The notes beneath the pieces are model-generated. The model ran no database searches. It saw nothing but the letters and a program-made list of their open reading frames with translations, and was not told the DNA's origin. From the NCBI RefSeq assembly GCF_000158035.1, contig NZ_EQ973490.1, forward strand, positions 1,156,338 to 1,220,337: DNA of 64,000 bases, read 5' to 3'. This DNA is from Bacteroides cellulosilyticus DSM 14838. GTDB lineage: Bacteria > Bacteroidota > Bacteroidia > Bacteroidales > Bacteroidaceae. Position numbers and translations under genes: made by a program. Numbering within the stretch: the first letter of the stretch is position 1; each line of letters begins with the position of its first letter. Below are positions 201 through 60,431 of this stretch, piece after piece.

Positions 201-376
201 AGAAACGTAAGCTCCACTTTATCGGAACATTTGTCTCCTTATTGTGAAACAAGAGTTTCTTCTCTGAGAAACCTTTGTTTCTTACCTAAGAAACTTTTAT
301 TTCTTAACCAAGAAACTTTTGTTCCACAGGCAAGGCACTTTCGTTCCAAGAGGAAGAAACAAAATGGAACAAGTAG
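201..376. repeat. 22-bp tandem array, eight units
   Basis: Eight consecutive 22-bp units start at 201, 223, 245, 267, 289, 311, 333 and 355 with no spacers. The shared core is (A)GAAAC, four bases, then GTTTC or GTTCC, so most units contain a short dyad. The unit tails differ. The array lies 130 bp upstream of the promoter of the DUF3836 gene. It has the same period as five other arrays in this window, but a different unit sequence. Confidence 0.85.
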
Positions 377-11993: not shown

Positions 11994-12872
11994 TTATTTC
12001 TTTCCTGCCATATATACTCCCCCCATAATACAAGCAGCCCCGATCAGTGCAATAACTGTCAGATGTTCATCTAACAGGATAGCCGATCCTACCAAAGTGA
12101 ACAGCGGATTGAGATAAATATAGTTGGAAGCGCGTACCGTTCCCAGATTTTTCAGTACGACATTCCAAACTGCAAAACAAATCAGGGAAGCAACCACACC
12201 CAGAAACAATAAATTCAACAGAACGGAAGGCTGAATGAGCAAAGAAAGGTCAGCCTTCCAAGGTTGAAACATAAAGACGGGAAGCGTAGTCAATATGCCA
12301 TAGAAAAAAATCTTGCGAGTAATAAAAATAGTATTATACCTTCCCGTCATCTTCTTCATTATCAGACTATAGAATGCCCATGAAAGAGCAGCAACCAAAG
12401 TAAGACAATCGCCCAACGGAGATATTTTCAAAACAAAACTCCCATTATAAACCACCATTGCCACCCCTATCAATGCCATCAGTGAACCGCCTATCAAAGT
12501 GCGGGTAGCCTTTTCTTTCTTATAAATCATCAGTGAAAAAATAGTGGTGAGCAACGGAGCCGTACAAACAATAAACGCCACATTAGTAGCCAGCGTAATG
12601 CCTAAAGCCATATTCTCCGTCAGAAAATAGACGGAACCGCCCGTGATACCACCCAACAACAACCAAAGTTCATCTTTCCAGTTATTTGCAAACAGCTTGC
12701 GGGGAGATATAAACCAGATACCAATATAAGCAATCAGAAAACGAAGCAGAAAGATTTCTTTCGGAGAAAGTCCATTGGCTATTAAAACTTTGGTGGAGAT
12801 AAAAGTTAATCCCCACACTCCTACGGTGAAGATCGCTATCAGATGATAGGTGTAATTTTTCTTCTCATTCAT
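11994..12872 (-). CDS. DMT superfamily permease (EamA type)
   Basis: The protein has ten hydrophobic segments in two EamA halves (about 5-135 and 150-290). It is the typical drug/metabolite transporter layout, probably exporting small metabolites; the substrate cannot be told. An upstream in-frame start at 12896 overlaps the -7 box, so the start at 12872 (MNEKKNYTYH) is used, giving 292 aa. It ends 28 bp from the convergent DUF1016 gene with no clear terminator between. Confidence 0.85.
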   Translation of the reverse strand: MNEKKNYTYHLIAIFTVGVWGLTFISTKVLIANGLSPKEIFLLRFLIAYIGIWFISPRKLFANNWKDELWLLLGGITGGSVYFLTENMALGITLATNVAFIVCTAPLLTTIFSLMIYKKEKATRTLIGGSLMALIGVAMVVYNGSFVLKISPLGDCLTLVAALSWAFYSLIMKKMTGRYNTIFITRKIFFYGILTTLPVFMFQPWKADLSLLIQPSVLLNLLFLGVVASLICFAVWNVVLKNLGTVRASNYIYLNPLFTLVGSAILLDEHLTVIALIGAACIMGGVYMAGKK

Positions 12873-12893
12873 ACGTTCCCGATAAATTGGAGG

Positions 12894-12925
12894 CAAAGAT
12901 ATACCATTTCTACTTTTTGTACAAT
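12894..12925 (-). promoter_or_regulatory. Promoter of the DMT permease gene
   Basis: On the minus strand, ATTG (12922-12925, close to TTTG) and TATCTTTG (12894-12901) are separated by 20 bp, the usual Bacteroides -33/-7 arrangement. Transcription should start near 12888, 16 nt before the ATG. Confidence 0.65.
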
Positions 12926-12953
12926 AAAACAGGGGATTTAATAGACGCCGGAA

Positions 12954-13019
12954 ACGTTTTTAATAAATAAGGGTGACGTTTTTTAAAAACTTTACCCACG
13001 TTTATTAACAACGTGATTA
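12954..13019. repeat. 22-bp tandem array, three units
   Basis: ACGTTT recurs at 12954, 12976 and 12998, exactly 22 bp apart. The third unit holds the dyad CACGTT...AACGTG (12997-13015), and the second holds GTTTTTTAAAAAC. It lies upstream of the DMT permease promoter. Same period as the array at 201 with an unrelated core. Confidence 0.65.
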
Positions 13020-13056
13020 GAGTGTTTTTCAGCAATCTGGCAGAAAAATAAACAAA

Positions 13057-13088
13057 AAGGGATGCAATCTTCTCAGACTTCATCCCTT
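13057..13088 (-). terminator. Rho-independent terminator, minus strand
   Basis: AAGGGATG (13057-13064) pairs with CATCCCTT (13081-13088). Read on the minus strand the stem is followed by a T-rich tract, so it would stop transcripts coming from the esterase and LacI genes. Confidence 0.6.
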
Positions 13089-13342
13089 GAAATATCCTAA
13101 AAACACTTTTGTGTAAAATCCTATTGAATTAACTTAGCCATTTTTTGTATTACATTACTTGAATTAGTTTTAATAAGCACTTCACAAATATAAGCAATAA
13201 AAATTAGAAATTGTTCTGAATTAACAAAAATATTTATCTGTTTATCGTTTTTTCTCGGCTGAGTACTAATAATTGTGCTTAGACCTGACATTATCAAAAA
13301 GTTCATTATGTTACCAAAAAAATAGATTGTAGAAAGAATATC

Positions 13343-14311
13343 CTATCTTTTATTCTTCAGAATTTTATTCATGAATTCAGTCATGTATTCGATTGTGGGA
13401 TCGAACCAGGGTCTGAAAAACCAATAAGGATGTGGGGTATCTTCAAATGTATGTATTTCGGTGTAAGTTCCATATTTATTAAGTAAAGCAATAGCTTCGT
13501 CCCGGCCATTATGAAAACGAGGAATGGAACTGTTAATAAAACAAACCGGTGCCGAATTCTTACTTATCCAGTATAAAGCGGAAGCCTCTTCCCAATTTTT
13601 CTTCTGCTCTTGATAGGTTCCACCCAGCCAGATAGCATCAATAGGCAATGGCTTGTTACTATCTCGTGCTTGTTTGGCTCGGTTTATCGATTCGTCTGTG
13701 ACAAAAGAAGAGATTCCATCCATATTGATGACAGCCCTAATCTTGCCGGAAGCATTCTTCATTCCAATTAACATCGCTAACTGACCACCTGCTGAACAAC
13801 CGGATACGGCAATCTTTTCTTTATCAATGCCGAATCTTCCTGCATTATTGTATATCCATTCAATAGCGTCTTCCAAATCCTCCACCCCTGCCGGATAAAG
13901 CGCTTCTGGAATTAAGCGGTATTCCACAGGAATAGTTACATAACCTTTAGTTGCAATTTGTTGTGCCATTGGTACTTGCAATCCCAAATTTCCAGAGTTC
14001 CATCCTCCACCGTGAATCATCATTAAAACCGGATATTCTTTACCGTCATTAGGACGGTATATATTCATCTTTAATTCATGCTTACCCCATGCATTTTCTA
14101 CTGTTTTATAAGTTACACCTTCATTGGCTAATACATTATCGGGTAGGCTAGCTCTTACGGGTTCAATGTAGGGACGGTAACGTAATTCTTTCTGATAAGT
14201 AGTGTTTAACGCAAAGGAAGTATCACGCGGAACACCGTCTATCACTACTGTTTGCGAAAAAGTGAATGATGTTGATAATAAACTGATTGCAAAAATTAAA
14301 TATGTTTTCAT
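13343..14311 (-). CDS. Secreted alpha/beta-hydrolase esterase
   Basis: The 322-aa protein has a signal peptide (about 1-19). Its alpha/beta-hydrolase domain shows the oxyanion motif HGGGW (100-104), the nucleophile motif GCSAG (171-175, Ser173) and a late catalytic His294 in TPHPYW. Asp271 in GRDEA is the likely third residue. It is of the BD-FAE or acetyl-esterase type, which removes acyl groups from plant polysaccharides. It starts 2 bp after the LacI gene stops, so it is cotranscribed with the repressor. The neighbours GH105 and GH95 suggest it removes acetyl or methyl groups from pectin fragments; that substrate is inference. Confidence 0.8.
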   Translation of the reverse strand: MKTYLIFAISLLSTSFTFSQTVVIDGVPRDTSFALNTTYQKELRYRPYIEPVRASLPDNVLANEGVTYKTVENAWGKHELKMNIYRPNDGKEYPVLMMIHGGGWNSGNLGLQVPMAQQIATKGYVTIPVEYRLIPEALYPAGVEDLEDAIEWIYNNAGRFGIDKEKIAVSGCSAGGQLAMLIGMKNASGKIRAVINMDGISSFVTDESINRAKQARDSNKPLPIDAIWLGGTYQEQKKNWEEASALYWISKNSAPVCFINSSIPRFHNGRDEAIALLNKYGTYTEIHTFEDTPHPYWFFRPWFDPTIEYMTEFMNKILKNKR

Positions 14312-14313
14312 GG

Positions 14314-15333
14314 TTAGCTATTTTTTGCAGTACTTTCCCTGCCGATTATTTCTGCTTGAATGATCTCTTCTTTTATTTCTACCGGATTATCATTTTTTCC
14401 GGCTAAAATTTCAAAATAAAGATTAGCAGCTTTTCTGCCGATCTCTATGCTTTTTTGATTGACTGCAGACAAAGTAGGTGTAGTAATCTCCGTCAGAATA
14501 TCATTTCCAGAGCCTATTATTCCTAATTCTTGGGGAACTTTAATACCTAAAGAGTTAGCTACTTGCAACACACATAGAGCTTGCTCGTCAGAAAAAGTCA
14601 AAAATGCATCTGGAGGAGTATTGGATGACAACAATAGAGTTATAATTTCCTTTGTTTTATCTTTCTGAATAGCATTGTCATAAATATGGCTGGTAAGCCC
14701 TGAAGTTTTCATTGCCTGCAGGTAGCCTCTTTTTCTTAACTGGTCAATAGTAAGCTGTTCTGTCCACCCCAAAAAAACTATATTTTGGTATCCTTGATTG
14801 ATCAGATGCATGGTTGCATTGTATGCAAGCTTTTCATTGTCATTAGTTACTTTATAACTATTAAAGTTTTCAATAAATCTATCAATCTGAATCAAGATAG
14901 TATCATGGTTTATGATATTCTGAAGATGTTCTGAAGAATTAGTCTCAGCAGATACAGAAATTAAAATACCATCTACATTTTGGCGTATTAACGTATCAAT
15001 AGCTCTACACTCCTTTTCATACGACTCTTGTGATTGACAGATAATTAAGCCATAATCATGTTCAAAACAAACTTCTTCAATGCCTGCAATCAATTCTGAA
15101 AAGAAACTCTTATTTATATGAGGAACAATTACTCCTATCGTTTTAGAAATTCCCATCCTGAGATTGGCAGCGTAAGAGTTATGTTTATAATTTAAATCCT
15201 TGGCAGCCTTTCTCACTTTCTCTTTCATCTTATCTCCCACCGAAGGATGATTATTTAATGCCTTGGAAATATAAGAAGGTGACAGGTTTATTGCTTTAGC
15301 AAGATCATAAATGGTTACTCTTTTATTATTCAT
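14314..15333 (-). CDS. LacI family transcriptional regulator
   Basis: The 339-aa protein has an N-terminal LacI helix-turn-helix (about 6-27, TIYDLAKAINLSPSYISKAL) and hinge helix, followed by a periplasmic-binding-protein-like effector domain (60-330). Length is typical. Three copies of the palindrome CAATCGATTG lie between it and the divergent GH105 gene, overlapping both promoters, so it very likely represses the cassette and itself. The inducer should be a sugar released by the cassette enzymes, perhaps an unsaturated galacturonide or rhamnose-containing fragment; this is inference. Confidence 0.9.
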   Translation of the reverse strand: MNNKRVTIYDLAKAINLSPSYISKALNNHPSVGDKMKEKVRKAAKDLNYKHNSYAANLRMGISKTIGVIVPHINKSFFSELIAGIEEVCFEHDYGLIICQSQESYEKECRAIDTLIRQNVDGILISVSAETNSSEHLQNIINHDTILIQIDRFIENFNSYKVTNDNEKLAYNATMHLINQGYQNIVFLGWTEQLTIDQLRKRGYLQAMKTSGLTSHIYDNAIQKDKTKEIITLLLSSNTPPDAFLTFSDEQALCVLQVANSLGIKVPQELGIIGSGNDILTEITTPTLSAVNQKSIEIGRKAANLYFEILAGKNDNPVEIKEEIIQAEIIGRESTAKNS

Positions 15334-15356
15334 CTTTGTTAATTCTGATTTGCTTG

Positions 15357-15389
15357 CAAAAATAGAGCTTTTTTTTGAATAATTTCAAT
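15357..15389 (-). promoter_or_regulatory. Promoter of the lacI-esterase operon
   Basis: On the minus strand the -7 TATTTTTG (15357-15364) is preceded by ATTG (15386-15389) at 21 bp. The -33 lies inside the first LacI operator, which points to autoregulation. Confidence 0.6.
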
Positions 15390-15456
15390 CGATTGAAAGA
15401 AATATAGGAAAAAGTTTGCAATCGATTGAAAAACCTATTATATTTGCAATCGATTG
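15383..15456. promoter_or_regulatory. Three LacI operators and the GH105 promoter
   Basis: The perfect palindrome CAATCGATTG occurs at 15386-15395, 15419-15428 and 15447-15456. The first extends to the 16-bp palindrome TTTCAATCGATTGAAA. On the plus strand TTTG (15415-15418), 20 bp and TATATTTG (15439-15446) form a full consensus promoter. The second operator lies between -33 and -7, and the third covers the expected start point. CG-centred palindromes of this size are typical LacI sites. Centre spacings are 33 and 28 bp, close to three helical turns. Confidence 0.85.
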
Positions 15457-15584
15457 AATTTTTTATTCTGAAATAAAAACAACTAAAAAGAAAATAACAT
15501 GGAATGGGAAAAGAGGTGAATATCTATCCCGGTAAATTTTACAACATATTATTTGAATAGTAAACAAAATAATATTTATCCAAA

Positions 15585-16967
15585 ATGAATAATAAAGTAT
15601 CATTGAAAAAACACCTTGTTCTTTTTTTGCTTCTTGGCTGCAATACTGTAGCTTTTTCGCAATTAGGAACAGGCATTTCAGCAAGGAAACCGGCATTGCC
15701 GACTTACAGTACCCCTTACGTAATACCTACGGTTAAAGATGTAAAAAATATCGTAGACCGGATACAACAAAGAGTAGAGAAAAACTCGCTTTTTTATCTT
15801 GTTGATTCTATTAACGGACAAACAATTTCATACTCTCAGCCTAATAAAAATGCGATTTATCCACAAGGAGCATTTTACTTTATAGAGTGGTCATATCCAA
15901 ATGGTGTCTCACTTTCTGCCTGCAACGATCTTTATGAAACTACCAATGATACGACATATTTCAATTATGCCATACGCTTTTTTGATTTCACTTTTAAAGC
16001 TATGCCTTATTTCCGGACAATGGAAGAAAACGGCCTGATACGACATCATCCGTATAAAAAAATGATCCATATGGCAGCATTAGACCATTGTGGTGCAATT
16101 GGGGCAGCGTTGATAAAAATCCAGAAAAGATATCCCGACCCTAGATTCAGGGAATGGATAGATACCATAGCAGATTATATTTATAACAAGCAGTATCGTT
16201 TGCGCGATAGAACAATAGCCCGCCAACGACCGCAACCTCAATCGCTTTGGGCAGATGATTTATATATGTGTATTCCTTTTCTGGCACAAATGGGATCTTT
16301 AACCGGCGATAAAAAATATTACGAAGATGCTGTTAGGCAAGTAGTACAATTATCTGCAAGACTCTTTGATCAGCAAACCGGCTTGTACGACCATGGTTGG
16401 AATGTGAACTCAGCAGCAGATGACCCACGATTTTATTGGGGACGGGCAAATGGCTGGTGTATTATGGCCATGGCTGAGCTATTGTCGGTGTTACCAGAAA
16501 ACTTTGAAGGTCGGGATAAAGTGTTAGCGCTATACCGCAGGCATGCACAAGCATTGGTACATTTGCAGGATGGAACCGGTTTATGGCACAATCTACTCGA
16601 CCAACCCCGATCATATCTGGAAACCTCAGCCAGTGCCATTTTCGTTTACAGTATTGCAAAAGGGGTAAATGAAGGCTGGCTCAGTCATATTTACGGCTCT
16701 GCTGCTCTTGCAGGATGGAATGCACTTGCTACAAAAGTTACTGAATCAGGCGAAGTGTGCGATATTGTGGAAGGTACAACGCTTGCTCATGATAATGTTT
16801 ATTATTTTAATAGAGGTAAAAGCTGTACCACCAATTTTCACGGAACCGTAATGAGAGCTGGTTCGGAAATTATTCGCTTATTAAACAATCCTCGATTCGT
16901 AATAGAATCTCCTGTGCCCAATAGCACTATTCACGTTAAGTTAAGAGCGGATATCCAATCAAAATAA
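15585..16967 (+). CDS. GH105 unsaturated rhamnogalacturonyl hydrolase
   Basis: The 460-aa protein has a hydrophobic N-terminal signal (about 1-26; a Cys at 19 makes a lipoprotein possible). The (alpha/alpha)6-barrel of GH105 follows, with LWADDLYM (221-228, catalytic Asp region), FYWGRANGW (283-291) and later GLWHNLLDQP and ETSASA. The family removes unsaturated galacturonic acid from the ends of lyase-generated pectin oligomers. A C-terminal extension of about 30 residues follows. It is the first plus-strand gene behind the LacI operators. The presence of a pectate-lyase remnant just downstream agrees with a pectin role. Confidence 0.9.
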   Translation: MNNKVSLKKHLVLFLLLGCNTVAFSQLGTGISARKPALPTYSTPYVIPTVKDVKNIVDRIQQRVEKNSLFYLVDSINGQTISYSQPNKNAIYPQGAFYFIEWSYPNGVSLSACNDLYETTNDTTYFNYAIRFFDFTFKAMPYFRTMEENGLIRHHPYKKMIHMAALDHCGAIGAALIKIQKRYPDPRFREWIDTIADYIYNKQYRLRDRTIARQRPQPQSLWADDLYMCIPFLAQMGSLTGDKKYYEDAVRQVVQLSARLFDQQTGLYDHGWNVNSAADDPRFYWGRANGWCIMAMAELLSVLPENFEGRDKVLALYRRHAQALVHLQDGTGLWHNLLDQPRSYLETSASAIFVYSIAKGVNEGWLSHIYGSAALAGWNALATKVTESGEVCDIVEGTTLAHDNVYYFNRGKSCTTNFHGTVMRAGSEIIRLLNNPRFVIESPVPNSTIHVKLRADIQSK

Positions 16968-16996
16968 GTAAAATATGAATATTGATTATATAATCT

Positions 16997-17185
16997 GTGC
17001 TACTTGATACAGACAATAATAGGATGCCGAATGCGTGGAAAATCATTCAGTATTCCAATCATAGTAATCCAACTGATGCAAATCTTATAACAGTTGACAA
17101 AATATATCCGAACATAGAAATTTATCTGAATAGTTTAGTCGAAAAAATAACAGTGATGAAAATACAATTATTTAATCAAATTTGA
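16997..17185 (+). pseudogene. C-terminal remnant of a pectate lyase
   Basis: A 62-codon open frame reads DTDNNRMPNAW, then DANLITVD, then IEIYLNSLVEKIT. This matches the conserved end of Bacteroides pectate lyases, usually D-D-GMPDAWE, followed by a NPNDASD-type loop and YTNLEVYLNSLV. The frame is closed by a stop at 16991 just upstream, and no catalytic part is left. It is therefore a decayed 3' end, probably left by a deletion between the GH105 and GH95 genes. The identification rests on motif memory. Confidence 0.65.
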
Positions 17186-17348
17186 AAACCCTTTTTTTTG
17201 ATGAAGTAGTTGCAATCAATGGTTCAGAAAATTATATCCAAGCACAGTAAACAAATAAGATAATTAACTGAATTACAAAATCTTAACAATGAATCAGTAG
17301 TAATCTTTCAACTTTTGATTCGCATGAATAACATAATAAAAACAATTT

Positions 17349-19679
17349 ATGAGAAATTTACTATTTGTAATTATCTTGCTTATGTCAAGTTTGCAGCTAA
17401 CGTTTGCACAAGACAAATGTAGCCATTTTTGGTATGCACAACCAGCATCTGATTGGAAATCGGCATTGCCAATAGGTAACGGTAGAATTGGAGGTATGAT
17501 TTTTGGTGATCCTTCAACAGAACAAATTGTGATTAATGAGAATACAATTTGGTGTGGTCCTCCACTTCCTCCAAACAATCCTAAAGGTCCCGAATTAATC
17601 AATAAAATGCGTAATCTTATTTTCAACGGAAAATATGAAGAAGCAGTAATCGTTTGTGAGAAAGAGTTCGCAGATGGAGTACACGAAAATGCGAGAAGTT
17701 ATCAACCTTTTGGATTCTTGAATATTGATTTTAAAGATAAAGGAGCAATAAGCAACTACAAACGATGGTTGGACTACACAAAAGCCATAACTTATGTAAG
17801 CTACACACAAAACGGTGTAACCTATACCCGTGAGGCTTTTGTAAGTAAACCAAATGAAGTAATGGTTGTGAGAATCACTGCCGACAAACCGGGACAAGTT
17901 TCGTTTAAATCTAAATATACACGTCCGTTTGGAGCAACTACAAAGGCAGAAAACAATCGTAGTCAATACGTACAAGGACAAGCCTATGCTGAAAATGGAG
18001 AGTTTGTAGGTGTGAAGTTTGAAGGAATAATTAACTATTATAACGAAGGCGGTAAAATAAAAGCTAACGAAACAGATATAGAAATAAACAATGCCAATAG
18101 TGTAACAATAATGATAGCTATTAGCACAGATTACAATATACACGATACGAAGAATGTTTTAACTCATAATCGTAAAAAGATTTGCGAAAAGCAATTATCG
18201 CAAGCACAAAAGTTAGGTTACAAAAAACTTAAACAAACTCACATTGACGAATATTCAGCATTATACAATCGTTCGTCATTTGATATTACATTTAACACAC
18301 CTGTTAATAATAACCCTATCGACAAGCGCATTCAGTTGGCGGCAAGTGGGCAGATAGATTCGGAACTACTGTTTGAATACTACAATTATTGCAGATATTT
18401 GTTTATCTCATCTTCAAGAAAGGGTGGCTTGCCTATGAATCTTCAAGGAATTTGGAATCCATTAATGTTAGCTCCTTGGAGATCTAATTTCCATATCAAC
18501 GTAAATATACAAGAAGCTTATTGGTTTGCCGAACAAGCTAATTTGTCTGAATGTCATGAACCTATATTTACATTGACAGAGAATCTTATTAAGAATGGAA
18601 AAGAGACAGCCCAAGTTATGTTTGGAACTAAAAGAGGCTCAGTTGCAGGTCATCGTACTGATGCCTGGTTTTATGCTCCTCCCACTTTCCTCAAAGCACA
18701 CTGGGGTATGTCTATCACAAATGCTGCATGGCTATGCTTACACCACATGGAACATTACAGATATACTCTTGACAAAGAATTTTTAAAAACAAGAGCTTTA
18801 CCTATATTAAGAGAAACTGCATTATTCTTCGTTGATTGGCTTGTCCCTGACCCACGAAGTGGAAAACTTGTATCTGGTCCTACTGCATCTCCCGAAAATC
18901 GTTTTAAAGTAAATGGAAAAGTTGCAAGTTTAACTATGGGCTGTACTTACGACCAAGAAATTATATGGAATACATTTAGAGATTTTCTTGAAGCATGCAA
19001 AATATTAGGCATTAACAACGAAGAAACAGTTGAAGTTGAAGCAAGTATGAAAAAACTTAGTATGCCAACTATTGCTAACGATGGACGTTTGATGGAGTGG
19101 ACAGAAGAGTCAGAAGAAACAGAACCGGGACATCGTCATATTTCGCACTTGTGGGGTATGATGCCAGGAAACAGAATTACTCAAGACAAAACTCCGCATC
19201 TTGTTGATGCTGTACGTAAATCTTTGGATTACAGATTAAATCATAATTATCATGCCCAAGGTTGGAGCTTAGGATGGGTTACTTCTATGCTTGCTCGTTT
19301 GAAAGAGGGTGATAAGAGTTTAGATATGATGCAGCACAATTATTTCACAAAAGCATACCCTAATATGTTTGTCGATGCTCACGGTCGTCCACAAGTAGGC
19401 GATATGATGGGAGTTCCTTTGGCAATGATTGAATTGATACTTCAAAGTCATACAGATTATATTGACTTGTTGCCTTCATTACCTACTGCCTGGAAAGATG
19501 GAAAAGTGACGGGCTTGTGTGCACGTGGTGCATTTGTTTTTGATATGGAATGGAAAGCCGGAAAACTCATCTCCACTAATATAAAATCCTTAAAGGGAGA
19601 GAAATGTCTTCTGCGGTATGAGGGAAAAGTAAAAGAACTATCAACGGAAGCAGGGAAAAGTTATCAAGTAACTTTCTAA
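17349..19679 (+). CDS. GH95 family glycoside hydrolase
   Basis: The 776-aa protein has a signal peptide (about 1-20), an N-terminal beta-sandwich with the opening PIGNGRIGGMIFG, and an (alpha/alpha)6-barrel typical of GH95 (alpha-1,2-L-fucosidase or alpha-L-galactosidase). NFHINVNIQEAYW carries the conserved Asn-x-Asn pair, and GRLMEWTEESEETEPGHRHISH (579-600, acid block from Glu583) matches the family. The usual catalytic-base motif FQIDGNFG is replaced by PQVGDMMG (681-688), with the acid shifted by one place to Asp685. Activity may therefore differ. Base composition is more AT-rich than in neighbouring core genes. A strong terminator follows. Its place in a LacI-controlled pectin cassette suggests removal of fucose or L-galactose from rhamnogalacturonan side chains. 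Confidence 0.85.
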   Translation: MRNLLFVIILLMSSLQLTFAQDKCSHFWYAQPASDWKSALPIGNGRIGGMIFGDPSTEQIVINENTIWCGPPLPPNNPKGPELINKMRNLIFNGKYEEAVIVCEKEFADGVHENARSYQPFGFLNIDFKDKGAISNYKRWLDYTKAITYVSYTQNGVTYTREAFVSKPNEVMVVRITADKPGQVSFKSKYTRPFGATTKAENNRSQYVQGQAYAENGEFVGVKFEGIINYYNEGGKIKANETDIEINNANSVTIMIAISTDYNIHDTKNVLTHNRKKICEKQLSQAQKLGYKKLKQTHIDEYSALYNRSSFDITFNTPVNNNPIDKRIQLAASGQIDSELLFEYYNYCRYLFISSSRKGGLPMNLQGIWNPLMLAPWRSNFHINVNIQEAYWFAEQANLSECHEPIFTLTENLIKNGKETAQVMFGTKRGSVAGHRTDAWFYAPPTFLKAHWGMSITNAAWLCLHHMEHYRYTLDKEFLKTRALPILRETALFFVDWLVPDPRSGKLVSGPTASPENRFKVNGKVASLTMGCTYDQEIIWNTFRDFLEACKILGINNEETVEVEASMKKLSMPTIANDGRLMEWTEESEETEPGHRHISHLWGMMPGNRITQDKTPHLVDAVRKSLDYRLNHNYHAQGWSLGWVTSMLARLKEGDKSLDMMQHNYFTKAYPNMFVDAHGRPQVGDMMGVPLAMIELILQSHTDYIDLLPSLPTAWKDGKVTGLCARGAFVFDMEWKAGKLISTNIKSLKGEKCLLRYEGKVKELSTEAGKSYQVTF

Positions 19680-19777
19680 TCTATACTGATTTATAAATTG
19701 TTTTAAACTAACAAAAGTGTTTATCAGTAAATAGTTTCTTTTCAATATTGCAGGAATATTCTTTCAATAGTAAAGCT

Positions 19778-19816
19778 AAAGCCAACTAATTCATTGTGAA
19801 TTAGTTGGCTTTTTTG
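19778..19816 (+). terminator. Strong rho-independent terminator
   Basis: A perfect 16-bp stem AAAGCCAACTAATTCA (19778-19793) and its reverse complement (19797-19812), with loop TTG, followed by a T run. It ends the GH105-GH95 transcript. Confidence 0.9.
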
Positions 19817-19882
19817 TGTCTTTAGATATCACTAAACAGGAAAAAATATATATTTTCAAATGTTCCGCTACCTGTCTGAAAC

Positions 19883-19985
19883 GTATCCGAACCGTACTTG
19901 CTCCGTACATTCTTCGGTCAAAAGTACTTCTACACGGAGAAAGTACGGCTTTGGTACGGAGCAAGTGTATCCCTGGTATGGTACA
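19883..19985. repeat. Palindromic repeat upstream of leuS
   Basis: ACTTGCTCCGTAC (19896-19908) and GTACGGAGCAAGT (19954-19966) are exact inverted copies around an inner dyad GTACTT...AAGTAC (19924-19946). Direct copies of the CGGAG core stand 22 bp apart (units at 19927 and 19949). GTAC-like motifs recur every 11 bp in each arm. It is about 50 bp upstream of the leuS -7 box. It may be a degenerate relative of the 22-bp arrays. Confidence 0.6.
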
Positions 19986-20034
19986 GACAAATACTTTTTT
20001 GTTGTACTAAGCTATGAATCTGAAAATAAACCCG

Positions 20035-22939: not shown

Positions 22940-22942
22940 ATT

Positions 22943-23019
22943 AGTTACGAGCTACGGGCTATAAGCTACAAGTAGAGAGAGAAAAGGTAACTTGACTCGC
23001 TCCCTTGTAGCTCGTAACT
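22943..23019. repeat. Inverted repeat after leuS
   Basis: AGTTACGAGCTAC (22943-22955) and GTAGCTCGTAACT (23007-23019) are exact inverted copies. Further partial copies of GTAACT and GCTAC lie between and after. It could form a hairpin in the leuS-YitT spacer. There is no T run, so it is not a classical terminator. It looks like a dispersed Bacteroides repeat. Confidence 0.6.
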
Positions 23020-23054
23020 TGTAACTCGTAGTTAATATCTTGTAACTGATTAAT

Positions 23055-24621: not shown

Positions 24622-26655
24622 ATGAGATTTCAATATATATTTCTTCTCTGCTTAATCTATCTTCTGCCTGCCTATTCGCAAAATGCGATAGGAGAGTGGC
24701 AAACTTACCTTTCTTATCATAATCCTACCCGCAGTGAAGTCATTGGAAGTAAACTCTTCATCCTTGCCAATGGTGATTTATATGCTTATGATAAAGAAGA
24801 TACCAGCATACGAACTTATTCAAAATCTTTTCCACTAAGCGATACGGAAATATCTTATATTGCTTACCAGTCAGCCTATAAATCATTGGTCATTATTTAT
24901 TCCAATGCGAATATAGACCTGTTGGTGAATGAGGAGGATATCTATAACCTTCCCGATTATAAAAACAAGAATATGACACAGGATAAGACGGTCAACCACG
25001 CTTGTTTTTATAAGGAATACACGTATTTATCCACTGCATCGGGTATTCTTTGTATCAATCTGAAAAAGCGGGAAATCAGCAATTACTATCCTCTGAATAA
25101 AAACGTTCTGGCATGTAATGTATCGGATAATCATCTTTATGCCGCTACTTCCGAAGGATTGTTTGCAGGGTTATTGACAGATAATCTACTGGATATTAAG
25201 AACTGGAAGAAAGTGTCGGATAATACCTCTGAATTCCTCTCGCAATACCACGATATTCCTTTCAAAGGAGAAGTGCCCGAAAACATTACTCCGAATAGTC
25301 CTGTGCGGAACTATCCGTATTATATGAATTTTGCCGGAGAACGATTGCTGATTACCGGAGGAGGACATATAGCCAACAGACTTGACAGGCCCGGAACCAT
25401 TATGACCTTTGAAAATAATACCTGGAACAGTTTTCAGGAAGAAGGCATCAGTGAACAAACCAAACATCGATACGATGATATAAACTGTATTGTGCAGGAT
25501 CCTAAAGACGTTGCTCATCATTTTGCTGCATCGGCAGGAGAAGGGATTTACGAATTTAAAGATGGGAAGTTCATAAACTGGTATAGTATGCATAACAGTC
25601 CGTTGGAAAGTGCTGTACCTAATGAACCTTGGGCAGATAGTTATGTACGCGTGAACGGACTGATTTATGACAAAGAAAATAACCTTTGGATGGTGAGTTG
25701 CGAGACACAACATGCAGTGAGTGTATTGATGAAAAATGGTGACTGGGCAAGTCTTCATTATCCGGAAATAGTAAAGGCAAGTAATTTCGGACGAACTATC
25801 TTTGATAAAAGAGGTTGGCTGTGGGCTACTTCTTCGCGTATAGAGTCGGGAGGATTGTTCTGCTTGAATTATAACGGTACTATAGCGGATACTTCGGACG
25901 ACCAGCACAGGTTCATTACCCGGTTTACGAATCAGGACGGAGCCCTTTTAGAACAGTTGGCAGTTTATTGCATTGCCGAGGATAAAGAGGGAGTCATCTG
26001 GATCGGTACTAACAGAGGTCCTTTGGTACTGAATAATCCTTCCCGCTATTTCAATGATAATTTCTATTGTACACAGATTAAAGTTCCGCGCAATGACGAC
26101 AGCGGGTTGGCTGATTTCTTACTGGTGAACGAAGCGATTAATGCCATTGCAATAGATGGTGCCAACAGAAAGTGGATAGGTACAGCATCCAATGGAATTT
26201 ACCTGATAAGTGCGGATGGAATGGAAACGATTCATCACTTTACGGAAGAAAACAGTCCGCTGCTTTCCAATAGCATCGTATCTATTGCCATACATCCCCG
26301 TACCGGCGAAGTCTTCATCGGAACAGGTAAGGGGCTCGTTTCTTACCAAAGTGACGCTACAGAGGCTGAAAACAGCTTTAAAGAGAGTAATGTACGTGCT
26401 TATCCTAATCCGGTACGTCCGGACTACAGCGGAGTAATTACTGTTACGGGAATGGTTTACGACAGTGATGTGAAGATTGTAGATACTGCCGGACATCTTA
26501 TTTACCAAGGTACTTCCCTGGGAGGGCAATTCACCTGGGACGGAAGAAATAAACAAGGTAGGAGAGTGACAACAGGAATATATATGGTACTTGCCGCAGA
26601 CAGTGAAGGAAAAGAGGGGATTGTTACAAAAATTGCATTTATAAGAGGAGAATAA
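24622..26655 (+). CDS. PorZ-like beta-propeller protein
   Basis: The 677-aa protein has a signal peptide (about 1-19). The opening IGEWQTYLSYHN resembles the N-terminal domain of PorZ, a surface component of the type IX secretion system in Porphyromonas. Two beta-propellers follow, with repeats such as DKEGVIWIGTNRGPL and GANRKWIGTASNGIYLI. The end is a beta-sandwich (about 590-677) like a T9SS-type C-terminal domain, with YPNPVRP and then TTGIYMVLA. No other type IX genes are in the window, and Bacteroides generally lack the system, so the protein may have another surface role. The family match is from memory. Confidence 0.7.
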   Translation: MRFQYIFLLCLIYLLPAYSQNAIGEWQTYLSYHNPTRSEVIGSKLFILANGDLYAYDKEDTSIRTYSKSFPLSDTEISYIAYQSAYKSLVIIYSNANIDLLVNEEDIYNLPDYKNKNMTQDKTVNHACFYKEYTYLSTASGILCINLKKREISNYYPLNKNVLACNVSDNHLYAATSEGLFAGLLTDNLLDIKNWKKVSDNTSEFLSQYHDIPFKGEVPENITPNSPVRNYPYYMNFAGERLLITGGGHIANRLDRPGTIMTFENNTWNSFQEEGISEQTKHRYDDINCIVQDPKDVAHHFAASAGEGIYEFKDGKFINWYSMHNSPLESAVPNEPWADSYVRVNGLIYDKENNLWMVSCETQHAVSVLMKNGDWASLHYPEIVKASNFGRTIFDKRGWLWATSSRIESGGLFCLNYNGTIADTSDDQHRFITRFTNQDGALLEQLAVYCIAEDKEGVIWIGTNRGPLVLNNPSRYFNDNFYCTQIKVPRNDDSGLADFLLVNEAINAIAIDGANRKWIGTASNGIYLISADGMETIHHFTEENSPLLSNSIVSIAIHPRTGEVFIGTGKGLVSYQSDATEAENSFKESNVRAYPNPVRPDYSGVITVTGMVYDSDVKIVDTAGHLIYQGTSLGGQFTWDGRNKQGRRVTTGIYMVLAADSEGKEGIVTKIAFIRGE

Positions 26656-26657
26656 GG

Positions 26658-26726
26658 GTGGTAAAGTGATAGAGGTGATAGGGTGACATTACTCTTATCA
26701 CTTTATCACCTCTATCACTTTACCAC
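26658..26726. repeat. Perfect 23-bp inverted repeat between convergent genes
   Basis: 26658-26680 (GTGGTAAAGTGATAGA..., 23 bp) and 26704-26726 are exact reverse complements with a 23-nt loop. A partial third copy (CTACCACTTTATCA) overlaps the end of nadA's neighbourhood. It sits between the convergent PorZ-like gene and nadA and could block read-through in both directions, though it lacks T runs. Confidence 0.75.
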
Positions 26727-26747
26727 TCTTATCAATCTACCACTTTA

Positions 26748-27686
26748 TCAAAGCCCCAGTTTTGCCGAAATCTCCAGCATCCTCTTGATAGGCTTCACTG
26801 CTTTCTCAGCAATTTCAGGATCTACTGTTATTTCCGGAGATTCGTCTTTCAGGCAATTATAAAGCTTTTCCAGCGTATTTAATCTCATGAAGCTACATTC
26901 ATTGCAGGCACAGGTACTATCGTTAGGAGGAGCCGGAATAAACGTCGTTTGCGGACATTTCTTCTGCATCTCATGAAGGATGCCCGATTCGGTAGCAACA
27001 ATATACTCTTTCTCGGGATGATTCACTGCATACTTCAGCAATGCTGCGGTTGAACCTACCACATCAGCCAACTTCAAAACTACACTCTTACATTCGGGAT
27101 GTGCCAAGACCACTGCATCGGGATGCTGCGCTTTTAATTCAACAATCTTTTCAACCGAGAATTGTTCGTGTACATGGCATGCGCCGTCCCATAATAACAT
27201 ATTGCGCCCCGTGATAGAGTTAATATAATTCCCCAGGTTTCTGTCAGGACCAAAGATTATTTTCTCATCTTTGGGGAAACTTTCCACGATCTGCTTCGCA
27301 TTGGTAGAAGTTACCACAACATCCGTCACTGCTTTCACGGCGGCTGTCGTATTCACGTAAGATATCACCGTATATCCGGGATGCTCTTTGACAAACTGAC
27401 TGAACTTGTCCGCCGGACAACTGTCCGCCAACGAACAACCGGCTGCCATATCAGGAACCAGCACTTTCTTATTCGGACAAAGCACCTTGGCCGTTTCACC
27501 CATAAAGTGAACACCGCACATCACAATGATATCCGCTTCCGTTTTGGCTGCCCATTGAGCCAATGCCAGACTATCGCCGACGTAATCGGCTATATCCTGT
27601 ATTTCCCCTTTCTGGTAGTAATGCCCCAGAATAATCGCGTTCTTCTCCTTTTTAAGTTGCTTGATAGCTTCTATGAGATTATTCAT
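26748..27686 (-). CDS. nadA: Quinolinate synthase
   Basis: The enzyme condenses iminoaspartate with dihydroxyacetone phosphate to quinolinate in NAD synthesis and binds a [4Fe-4S] cluster. Counting from the start used here (312 aa), the cluster cysteines are expected at Cys84 (PDMAAGCSLADSC), Cys169 (GACHVHEQF) and one of Cys258/260/263 (STCACNECSFM). GHYYQ and AHPECK are also typical. A longer frame begins at 27761, but its extra 25 residues are unlike the family, so MNNLIEAIKQ is chosen. No nadB or nadC is adjacent. Confidence 0.93.
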   Translation of the reverse strand: MNNLIEAIKQLKKEKNAIILGHYYQKGEIQDIADYVGDSLALAQWAAKTEADIIVMCGVHFMGETAKVLCPNKKVLVPDMAAGCSLADSCPADKFSQFVKEHPGYTVISYVNTTAAVKAVTDVVVTSTNAKQIVESFPKDEKIIFGPDRNLGNYINSITGRNMLLWDGACHVHEQFSVEKIVELKAQHPDAVVLAHPECKSVVLKLADVVGSTAALLKYAVNHPEKEYIVATESGILHEMQKKCPQTTFIPAPPNDSTCACNECSFMRLNTLEKLYNCLKDESPEITVDPEIAEKAVKPIKRMLEISAKLGL

Positions 27687-28124: not shown

Positions 28125-28167
28125 CAACAGGAATAAAAAGATAACGTATAAGTACGTTGTTTGTTCT

Positions 28168-28255
28168 ACACTTGTGTGGCTTGTCTGTAATGCTTGTGTT
28201 GTATAAATGAAACACAAGTGTGGTGCAAATAAAACACTTGTGTTCAACAAGTCTT
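28168..28255. repeat. 22-bp tandem array, four units
   Basis: Units start at 28168, 28190, 28212 and 28234. Cores are ACACTTGTGT, ATGCTTGTGT, ACACAAGTGT and ACACTTGTGT. The third is the inverted form in the same register. The core is a 10-bp dyad. The array lies in the probable 5' leader of the SpoU methylase gene. Confidence 0.75.
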
Positions 28256-28301
28256 TGTAAATCAATCTATTAATAAAAGCCATTTAAAGAGTATAGTTGT
28301 T

Positions 28302-28829
28302 ATGCGTAAACTGAAAATAACAGAACTGAATCGTATTAGTATAGAGGAGTTTAAGGAAGCTGAGAAGCTGCCCCTGGTGGTGGTATTGGATAATATCCGC
28401 AGTCTTCATAACATTGGTTCTGTATTTCGTACTTCGGATGCTTTCCGGGTGGAATGTATTTACCTGTGTGGCATTACAGCTACTCCGCCCCATCCTGAGA
28501 TGCATAAAACAGCTTTAGGTGCTGAATTCACTGTCGACTGGAAGTATGTTGATAACTGTGTTGAAGCTGTTGATAACCTTAAAAAGGAAGGATATACTGT
28601 TTATTCTGTAGAGCAGGCGGAAGGCAGTATCATGCTGGATGAGCTGTCTTTAGACCGTACTAAGAAGTATGCAGTAGTTATGGGCAATGAGGTGAAAGGA
28701 GTTCAGCAGGAGGTTATTGACCATTCCGATGGATGTATTGAGATACCCCAATATGGTACGAAGCACTCATTGAACGTATCTGTAACTGCCGGTATCGTTA
28801 TCTGGGATTTATTCAAGAAACTGAAATAA
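28302..28829 (+). CDS. SpoU/TrmH-type RNA 2'-O-methyltransferase
   Basis: The 175-aa SPOUT-fold protein has the three family motifs: NIRSLHNIGSVFRTSDAF (motif 1, about 30-47), VVMGNEVKGV (motif 2) and YGTKHSLNVSVTAGI (motif 3, SAM-binding knot). It should methylate the 2'-OH of a tRNA or rRNA nucleotide; which one cannot be told. It has no N-terminal RNA-binding extension. It is preceded by a long leader holding a 22-bp repeat array. Confidence 0.9.
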   Translation: MRKLKITELNRISIEEFKEAEKLPLVVVLDNIRSLHNIGSVFRTSDAFRVECIYLCGITATPPHPEMHKTALGAEFTVDWKYVDNCVEAVDNLKKEGYTVYSVEQAEGSIMLDELSLDRTKKYAVVMGNEVKGVQQEVIDHSDGCIEIPQYGTKHSLNVSVTAGIVIWDLFKKLK

Positions 28830-33454: not shown

Positions 33455-33542
33455 CTATATATCCAACGTATTGGGCCTATATATCCAATGTGTCCGATCT
33501 ATATATCCAGCGCGTCCCATCTATATATCCAATACGTTGGGT
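33455..33542. repeat. 22-bp tandem array, four units
   Basis: Units start at 33455, 33477, 33499 and 33521, each beginning CTATATATCCA. The core of unit 1 is CCAACGTATTGG and of unit 4 CCAATACGTTGG, exact reverse complements; units 2 and 3 vary. It lies between the radical SAM and flavin reductase genes. Confidence 0.85.
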
Positions 33543-54151: not shown

Positions 54152-54239
54152 GGCTACACCTTTTTGTCCGGATGGCTACACCCTTTTACTCTCATGGCTA
54201 CACCTTTTCATATAAAGGGTGTAGTCATTCCAAAAGGAT
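54152..54239. repeat. 22-bp tandem array, three direct and one inverted unit
   Basis: GGCTACACC occurs at 54152, 54174 and 54196, 22 bp apart, each followed by a T-rich run. The next 22-bp slot (54218) holds the inverted form GGTGTAG. The last two units form a hairpin (ATGGCTACACC with GGGTGTAGTCAT). It lies between the GH5-GH43 and TlpA-like genes. Confidence 0.75.
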
Positions 54240-59840: not shown

Positions 59841-59906
59841 TTGCGGGCTCTACGTTTGCCAATTGTGGGCTGTTCATCCCGCAATTGCGGGCTACACAGC
59901 CCACAA
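59841..59906. repeat. 22-bp tandem array, three units
   Basis: Units start at 59841, 59863 and 59885. Each begins TTGCGGGCT or TTGTGGGCT and ends with CCAA, CGCAA or CACAA. In units 2 and 3 the dyad spans the whole 22 bp. The preceding 22 bp carry a weaker dyad, CTGTAG...CTACAG (59817-59840). Confidence 0.8.
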
Positions 59907-60218: not shown

Positions 60219-60270
60219 CTACACTTTCCTACACCACTTCCTACACCACTTCCTACACCACTTCCTACAC
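60219..60270. repeat. 12-bp tandem array (CTACAC core)
   Basis: CTACAC occurs at 60219, 60229, 60241, 60253 and 60265. From 60229 the unit is a near-perfect 12-bp repeat, TTCCTACACCAC. Inverted copies GTGTAGG flank it at 60201 and about 60310, so the array can fold back on both sides. Confidence 0.8.
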
Positions 60271-60431
60271 CGCCTATCTGTTTGATAATCAAATGAAAAT
60301 GATAGTTGGTGTAGGATGTAGGAAAGATTGATGTAAACTCGACAGTATGTGATTTCCGCTTTTAATTAGTTTTTCTCATATAAAAACACTATCTATGCAA
60401 TAAATATAATGAACTATTTAAAAATGATATC

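Follow-up and report, generated by a model that had tools for sequence, protein, structure and literature searches.

The DNA analysed here (the window) is a stretch of 64,000 nucleotides from contig C62 of the Bacteroides cellulosilyticus genome (G000:C62:1156338-1220337; G000 comprises 6.87 Mb in 66 contigs). It contains six arrays which had been pointed out by a sequence-only reading; all six are present at the positions given there, and each can be written out in rows of 22 bp. Together with a change in GC skew, the features are as follows.

201..376, no strand: F1 array, eight slots of 22 bp, core GAAAC-N4-GTTTC
12001..20000, no strand: GC-skew change from negative to positive, probable replication-origin region and centre of the F2 cluster
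12954..13019, no strand: weak array, three slots, core ACGTTT / AACGT
28168..28255, no strand: ACACTTGTGT array, four slots, the third inverted (ACACAAGTGT)
33455..33542, no strand: F2 array, four slots, CTATATATCC(A), the complementary strand of GGATATATAG
54152..54239, no strand: F3 element, four slots, >>>< orientation of GGCTACACC
59841..59906, no strand: array, three slots, TTGYGGGCT...AGCCCRCAA

In each of the six spacers, none of 1000 dinucleotide shuffles equalled the best lag-22 segment. The weakest array is the one at 12954..13019 (score 14.1), whose score was matched at some lag between 15 and 30 by one of 120 shuffles; similar cores are found in L039 and L043. In the spacer of the 59841 array a different repeat outscores the array, at lag 24. 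Tandem Repeats Finder reported a period of 22 for four of the six arrays. The F1 array carries a second dyad 11 bp off (GTTTCTT...AAGAAAC), and this family has further matches at six other places of the genome, with flanks that are partly shared. The array at 28168..28255 is flanked by a promoter-like motif, TATCTTTG, and by a SpoU methylase gene at 28302; it falls inside a frame once the open-frame limit is lowered.

Several properties ascribed to the arrays beforehand were found in part. A unit inverted within the same slot, claimed for three arrays, is clear in 54152-54239 and 28168-28255. All six arrays precede some gene start, as described, but a genome-wide preference for such positions is absent: in the G000 sample defined below, divergent spacers hold 12 of 51 placed arrays compared to 35 of 188 background spacers. 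Dyads, said to be carried by most units, reached p <= 0.05 in 25 of 53 arrays of all families and failed to do so in the other 28. Among the five window arrays tested only 226-348 passed (the test accepts a dyad within 9 bp of a centre, and array 54152 was too short for it). The best dyad over these 53 arrays scored 0.63, against 0.53 with permuted columns.

Other repeats occur in the window, too. A perfect 12-bp tandem repeat, TTCCTACACCAC, is present in 3.8 copies at 60226-60271, in the spacer of the 59841 array. A 114-bp inverted-repeat element of CTTGTAGCTCGTAAC-like steps at 22940-23052 has matches elsewhere; B. stercorirosoris and B. oleiciplenus lack it, their orthologous spacers measuring 4 bp at that place. 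At 26646-26750 there is a palindromic array with periods of 8 and 17 bp (TTATCACTTTACCACTC...); the B. stercorirosoris spacer has an F2 22-bp array instead.

The genome-wide excess at lag 22 that a class of such arrays predicts was clearly detected. Our G000 sample consisted of the window plus 40 stretches, each 20 kb long and taken from three contigs (864 kb with 13,156 masked bases), of which L041, L048 and L049 were picked for a known F1 match and the remainder at fixed steps. Its 276 spacers of at least 60 bp (70.5 kb in total) gave 95 intergenic matches at lag 22 compared to a mean of 0.3 in ten shuffles. Lags 44 and 66 followed with 54 and 21 matches, the shuffle means at the three lags being 0.2 to 0.4, and lags 21, 23 and 11 yielded six, five and five. 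Only four lag-22 matches were found in 777 kb of coding sequence. Matches at lag 22 are spread over 43 of the 276 spacers, and 52 arrays outside open frames were catalogued; if the sample is typical, this would mean about 400 arrays in the whole genome. Among other lags, lag 7 showed 18 matches, and lags 76 and 77 were high due to one CRISPR-like array with a period of 76-77 (L043:7918-9469).

Ten other genomes of the same genus, pooled (35 stretches, 700 kb), showed 33 lag-22 matches in 18 of 221 spacers, whereas 87 spacers from 200 kb of E. coli K-12 showed none. G014, G017 and G004 gave no lag-22 match in the stretches sampled, although G014 contains 15 exact F3 pairs. Three other families of the order, of which 100 kb were read, gave 1, 0 and 1 matches. 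The 22-bp array class is real and a property of the genus, not of the window alone; the notion of one period with free sequence held in G000 and, pooled, in the ten other genomes.

The cores, described as unrelated in the window, are not all unrelated genome-wide. Five families recur between loci and between species: F1 (GAAAC-N4-GTTTC), F2 (ATATATAGATG; the CTATATATCCA of the earlier reading is its opposite strand), F3 (GGCTACACC), F4 (ACAAGAAGTTAACTTCTTGT) and F5 (ACTAA-NN-ATGTAAT). Many other cores were seen once or twice. Other genomes use further ones, e.g. TTGTACAA in all four stretches of G003 and TGTGCCA-N5-TGGCACA in G001. Among the matches listed, exact F3 pairs occur in B. timonensis, B. 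stercorirosoris, B. oleiciplenus, B. fluxus, B. muris, B. fragilis S82 and Q1F2 and in Prevotellaceae MAGs. Within 60 genomes of the genus, five have an exact F3 pair and four an exact F2 pair, compared to 0 (F3) and 1 (F2) matches of the reversed-pattern controls. Matches to the F3 pattern outside Bacteroidota (Ramlibacter, Streptomyces, Nocardioides, Anaerolineae, Propionibacterium, Panacagrimonas and one MAG named 'bacterium') were treated as chance, four of the seven lying inside open frames; they are excluded from the spacing counts below, and those among L146-L225 remain in the 107 chains.

Adjacent F3 cores lie exactly 22 bp apart in 240 of 261 cases and at 11, 33, 44 or 55 bp in 15 more; none lie at 21 or 23 bp. 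As many loci had been fetched with a same-orientation 22-bp pattern, neighbours of opposite GGCTACACC orientation provide the fairer count, and 69 of these 79 are at 22 bp. Units occur in either orientation on the 22-bp grid, rarely on an 11-bp one. The 107 F3 chains, counted with duplicates and including 21 that are pairs only, comprise 41 of the form ><<< or its reverse and 12 of the form <<<> or its reverse. The canonical F3 element has four slots, about 88 bp, and one inverted end unit. In 38 distinct >>>< elements the spacers are specific to their slots, so that these look like copies of one element; the flanks differ among the loci inspected.

Cores are conserved, spacers drift. In F2, positions 5 to 8 of the spacer (taken between exact cores of G000, G111 and G101) are purine, pyrimidine, purine, pyrimidine in 29, 29, 28 and 29 of 29 distinct spacers, with both bases of each class occurring. 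Such a pattern without fixed bases is as expected for indirect read-out. Over 97 arrays, transitions account for 47.5% of the differences between units compared to 33% expected from composition; this proportion is high mainly in F2 and in some others.

Comparison of orthologous spacers, which had been proposed as a check, revealed loss of units, inversion, and one array that grew in place. Where G000 and B. timonensis align over longer distances, identity is mostly 89 to 98%. The spacer 28127-28289 contains four ACACTTGTGT slots in the window, none in B. timonensis (G031), about one unit in B. stercorirosoris (G032), and in B. oleiciplenus (G033) a 22-bp array with the unrelated core TGAAGCTTCA. 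It is the one spacer in which two unrelated 22-bp families were observed. The junction in G031 shows a CTTTGCAA/CTTTGTAA repeat and fits a deletion as well as an insertion. The F2 array at 33455 is missing in G032 and G033, and B. timonensis has a gene at this place. Inversion is seen between B. fragilis S82 and Q1F2, where two inverted F3 units enclose a 13-bp spacer that is turned around, and between B. stercorirosoris and B. timonensis, where a middle F3 segment is inverted and one unit lost. Exact runs of at least 22 were encountered in 622 spacers only twice at lag 22 and three times at lag 44. Exact copies of whole units are hence rare, which suggests that most arrays are old or were not made by plain duplication.

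With regard to genes, F3 has a distinct position. For 53 F3 arrays the genes on either side are visible (21 at locus edges or within open frames are omitted), and of these 16 are in convergent and 4 in divergent spacers; the 224 background spacers of at least 150 bp from the same loci comprise 37 convergent and 53 divergent ones. In ++ spacers the median F3 array starts 30 bp past the stop codon and ends 149 bp ahead of the next start. All families together have 31 of 114 placed arrays in convergent and 13 in divergent spacers (31 at edges or within open frames omitted), the non-F3 families 17 and 11 of 74. In the G000 sample 9 of 51 arrays of all families are convergent compared to 23 of 188 background spacers. 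The 3' bias holds for F3 only; the idea that the whole class are 3' elements failed for the remaining families and was dropped.

Relative to transcription, the commonest F3 pattern runs one way in 8 and the other way in 9 cases, and the rarer <<<> form is uneven (5 against 1). RNA fold-back is strong and the same for either strand (mean z -3.65 and -3.74, 60 arrays). For the 36 co-directional arrays, the sense strand is the more stable one in 19 and the antisense strand in 17. The equal fold-back on both strands and the even direction of F3 favour a role at the DNA level. Rfam gave no match in the window at gathering scores.

F2 differs in its distribution along the chromosome. The sampled stretches of contig C62 have a negative GC skew as far as 1.12 Mb and a positive one from the window onward, and the sign flips inside the window, from the 12-16 kb bin to the 16-20 kb bin; judging from GC skew alone, the replication origin is probably near window positions 12001-20000. 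At about 13.3-19.8 kb of the window there is a block with genes for a LacI-type regulator, GH88 and GH95, and no long G111 match exists at that junction. C62, which makes up 32% of the assembly, carries 19 of the 26 loci at which F2 pairs with up to three mismatches were found in G000 (p 1.8e-5); the other seven lie on four other, unplaced contigs. In G111 (6.4 Mb, three contigs) all 12 F2 loci are on C1 between 0.80 and 2.17 Mb, and the orthologue of the window is at 1.51-1.56 Mb of this contig. The distances from 1.51 Mb do not exceed 0.71 Mb (KS against uniform, p 3e-8), whereas those of 17 F3 loci look uniform (KS p 0.75). Reversed-pattern controls of F2 gave 3 matches per genome compared to 80 in G000 and 34 in G111. 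Some F2 loci are orthologous between the two genomes, so that their results do not count as independent evidence.

For B. stercorirosoris, the stretches analysed came from contigs C58 and C51 only, were partly picked for F2 matches, and contained six F2 arrays. These arrays are in synteny to C62 at 0.9, 1.16 and 1.49 Mb. Contig C56 has F2 matches as well, and one stretch of it is syntenic with C63. Local copying could also produce such a clustering. F2 is perhaps a mark of the origin domain, a candidate which is concentrated near the origin and not exclusive to it.

No account of 22-bp arrays of several families was found in the open-access literature, the search not extending to subscription journals and preprints. 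CRISPR arrays, which are accompanied by cas genes, have unrelated spacers between near-identical repeats of about 24-47 bp. Judged on repeats alone, the arrays described here differ from them in that their period is 22 bp, their cores are degenerate and their spacers are often similar. Iterons and partition arrays of plasmids are rows of protein sites about two turns apart, as single loci with one protein each; the rows of sites are alike, but here they are dispersed over the chromosome. The REP/BIMEs of enterobacteria, associated with RAYT transposases, are extragenic, dispersed, often palindromic and different from species to species and occur in both orientations. The arrays are likewise dispersed, extragenic, often palindromic (a significant dyad in 25 of 53) and different among species, and F3 is found in both orientations and also 3' of genes; unlike REP/BIMEs, many unrelated families share one 22-bp grid. 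The RAYT domain Y1_Tnp (PF01797) had no match in G000 (96% complete) and was present in 5 of 14 control genomes. Assignment to REP/BIMEs therefore fails on the transposase, and the arrays resemble them in dispersal and symmetry.

Porphyromonas gingivalis belongs to the same bacterial order as Bacteroides. Its BrickBuilt MITE is likewise intergenic and built of short tandem units in strain-variable number, but it is a single family whose 23-nt units come with a leader and a tail (PMC4596501), compared to many families with a period of 22 bp here. Terminal inverted repeats on a short non-coding element, as in MITEs, are found for F3, in which the end units are usually inverted relative to each other. 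Confinement of sites to a chromosome region is known from MatP/matS and MaoP/maoS of E. coli, and maoS is a single 17-bp site (PMC5023128). F2 may be confined in a similar way (in G111 all 12 loci lie near the origin, in G000 19 of 26 are on the contig with the origin, and F3 is evenly spread), but it consists of arrays, is concentrated on the origin side and has no known protein. The TAACTGA direct repeats of Beggiatoaceae, Cyanobacteria and some Bacteroidetes form intergenic sets of short repeats of unknown function as well; they are contiguous heptamers of one sequence, located mostly just 5' of start codons in the main genome studied (PMC4679880).

Three mechanisms had been offered for a constant period with free sequence. 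A protein bound on one face of the DNA fits best because the grid is independent of core orientation (69 of 79), the cores are conserved while spacers drift, and F2 shows a purine/pyrimidine pattern without fixed bases. RNA hairpins are disfavoured since fold-back is equal on both strands and the GGCTACACC elements run either way along transcription. Copying by length is possible as the 28168 array grew in place, but near-perfect young 22-bp copies are rare. We tentatively favour the explanation that the arrays are REP/BIME-like DNA elements, in-phase rows of protein sites, with F2 perhaps marking or organising the origin domain. The arrays would act as double-stranded, extragenic DNA. Each would represent two to eight sites with centres on a grid of 22 bp, i.e. 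two helical turns (rarely 11 bp), and proteins on adjacent sites would share one DNA face and touch each other regardless of site orientation. Every sequence family would be read by its own binding protein. The arrays may spread as whole short elements (F3) or by growth in place from one unit (28168), and change via inversion between inverted units and loss of units. At least one family, F2, is concentrated near the origin and might contribute to organising or segregating this part of the chromosome. The grid, the families, the strand symmetry, the turnover, the 3' position of F3 and the clustering of F2 are observed; the binding proteins, their mutual contacts and the role of the arrays are inferred. 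A point against the in-phase reading is that 22 bp correspond to 2.1 turns of relaxed B-DNA, a drift of about 34 degrees per site. In a bolder form, Bacteroides would possess a large, so far unrecognised system for organising its chromosome: related oligomerising DNA-binding proteins with diverged specificities would keep one 22-bp geometry, each reading its own family of arrays, and the families would divide the chromosome among themselves, with F2 marking the origin domain. This form is speculative and in our opinion doubtful.

An alternative without any protein reader would be a mutational ruler, i.e. replication, repair or template switching that duplicates or inverts 22-bp stretches with the aid of palindromes. 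Unrelated cores indeed have only length in common, the four units of the 28168 array in G000 correspond to about one in G032 and to an unrelated 22-bp array in the G033 spacer, and inversions took place between inverted units. On the other hand, perfect copies of recent origin are rare (622 spacers contain 2 exact runs of at least 22 at lag 22), different species retain the cores but not the spacers, cores of opposite orientation hold the grid, F3 has a fixed four-unit design (38 distinct canonical elements) and F2 is regional; we consider this explanation rather unlikely. The compact F3 element of about 88 bp, with end units usually inverted (38 distinct >>>< elements) and differing flanks, and the orthologous spacers without an array would also be compatible with MITE-like families, non-autonomous elements with inverted ends moved by a transposase or recombinase whose footprint is 22 bp. 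Such an origin would require many enzymes of one spacing. G000 has no match to a Y1 transposase, the only transposase family tried, no clear target duplication was seen in the few comparisons made, and a search with one F3 element turned up nothing among 72,556 plasmids and a single weak match among 50,697 phages, making a MITE-like origin unlikely.

Transcribed hairpin arrays, serving as terminators, 3'-end stabilisers or RNA-protein sites, would explain the strong fold-back (mean z -3.6, 60 arrays), the 3' location of F3 and the position of the 28168 array in a probable 5' leader. They are very unlikely considering that stability shows no strand preference (19 vs 17 of 36), nor does the commonest F3 pattern prefer a direction, and that the window has no Rfam match at gathering scores. 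Operator arrays for ordinary transcription factors would account for dyads in about half of the arrays (25 of 53), for the gene start downstream of all six window arrays and for the lack of divergent-spacer avoidance by non-F3 families in the G000 sample. However, F3 avoids divergent spacers (4 of 53), several families are present in convergent ones (31 of 114) and no regulator family is in excess among the 25 commonest families beside the arrays, so that we regard this as the most improbable explanation.

Candidates for proteins reading the arrays were sought among their neighbours. For 103 proteins flanking arrays in G000 and relatives, the 25 commonest of 187 Pfam families showed no excess of DNA-binding or transposase families; the commonest one, the response regulator, was found in four proteins. 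In B. timonensis (L284), a gene which by eye resembles an AAA_14-type ATPase, with two TTCGATTATAATCGAA copies upstream, stands in place of the F2 array of 33455 in the orthologous spacer. AAA_14 ATPases were considered as partners of the arrays on account of this gene and rejected: of 24 G000 matches, 20 were checked (one without open frame), and none of these had a 22-bp array upstream.

A ruler shared without a shared sequence separates geometry from specificity, and hence suggests that one protein architecture or one way of copying, so far unassigned, is common to the arrays. Little is known about the organisation of the Bacteroides chromosome, and the origin-clustered F2 would offer a direct handle on it. 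Furthermore, arrays differ among close species and may therefore serve as ready-made markers; they may also mislead the annotation of intergenic regions.

Between two array-bearing spacers it is often mainly the array that is common, F1 and one paralogous block sharing flanks as well. This non-coding block of about 880 bp (L025:1273-2135 and, in reverse, L027; 73% identity) carries F2, F5 and F3 arrays in identical order. In B. timonensis, a dispersed element of about 470 bp was observed in L156, L166, L191, L206 and L218 with roughly 89-96% identity, and its GAAACTGTCGTTCCCATTAAGA-type 22-bp array is three units (66 bp) longer in L218 than in L156.
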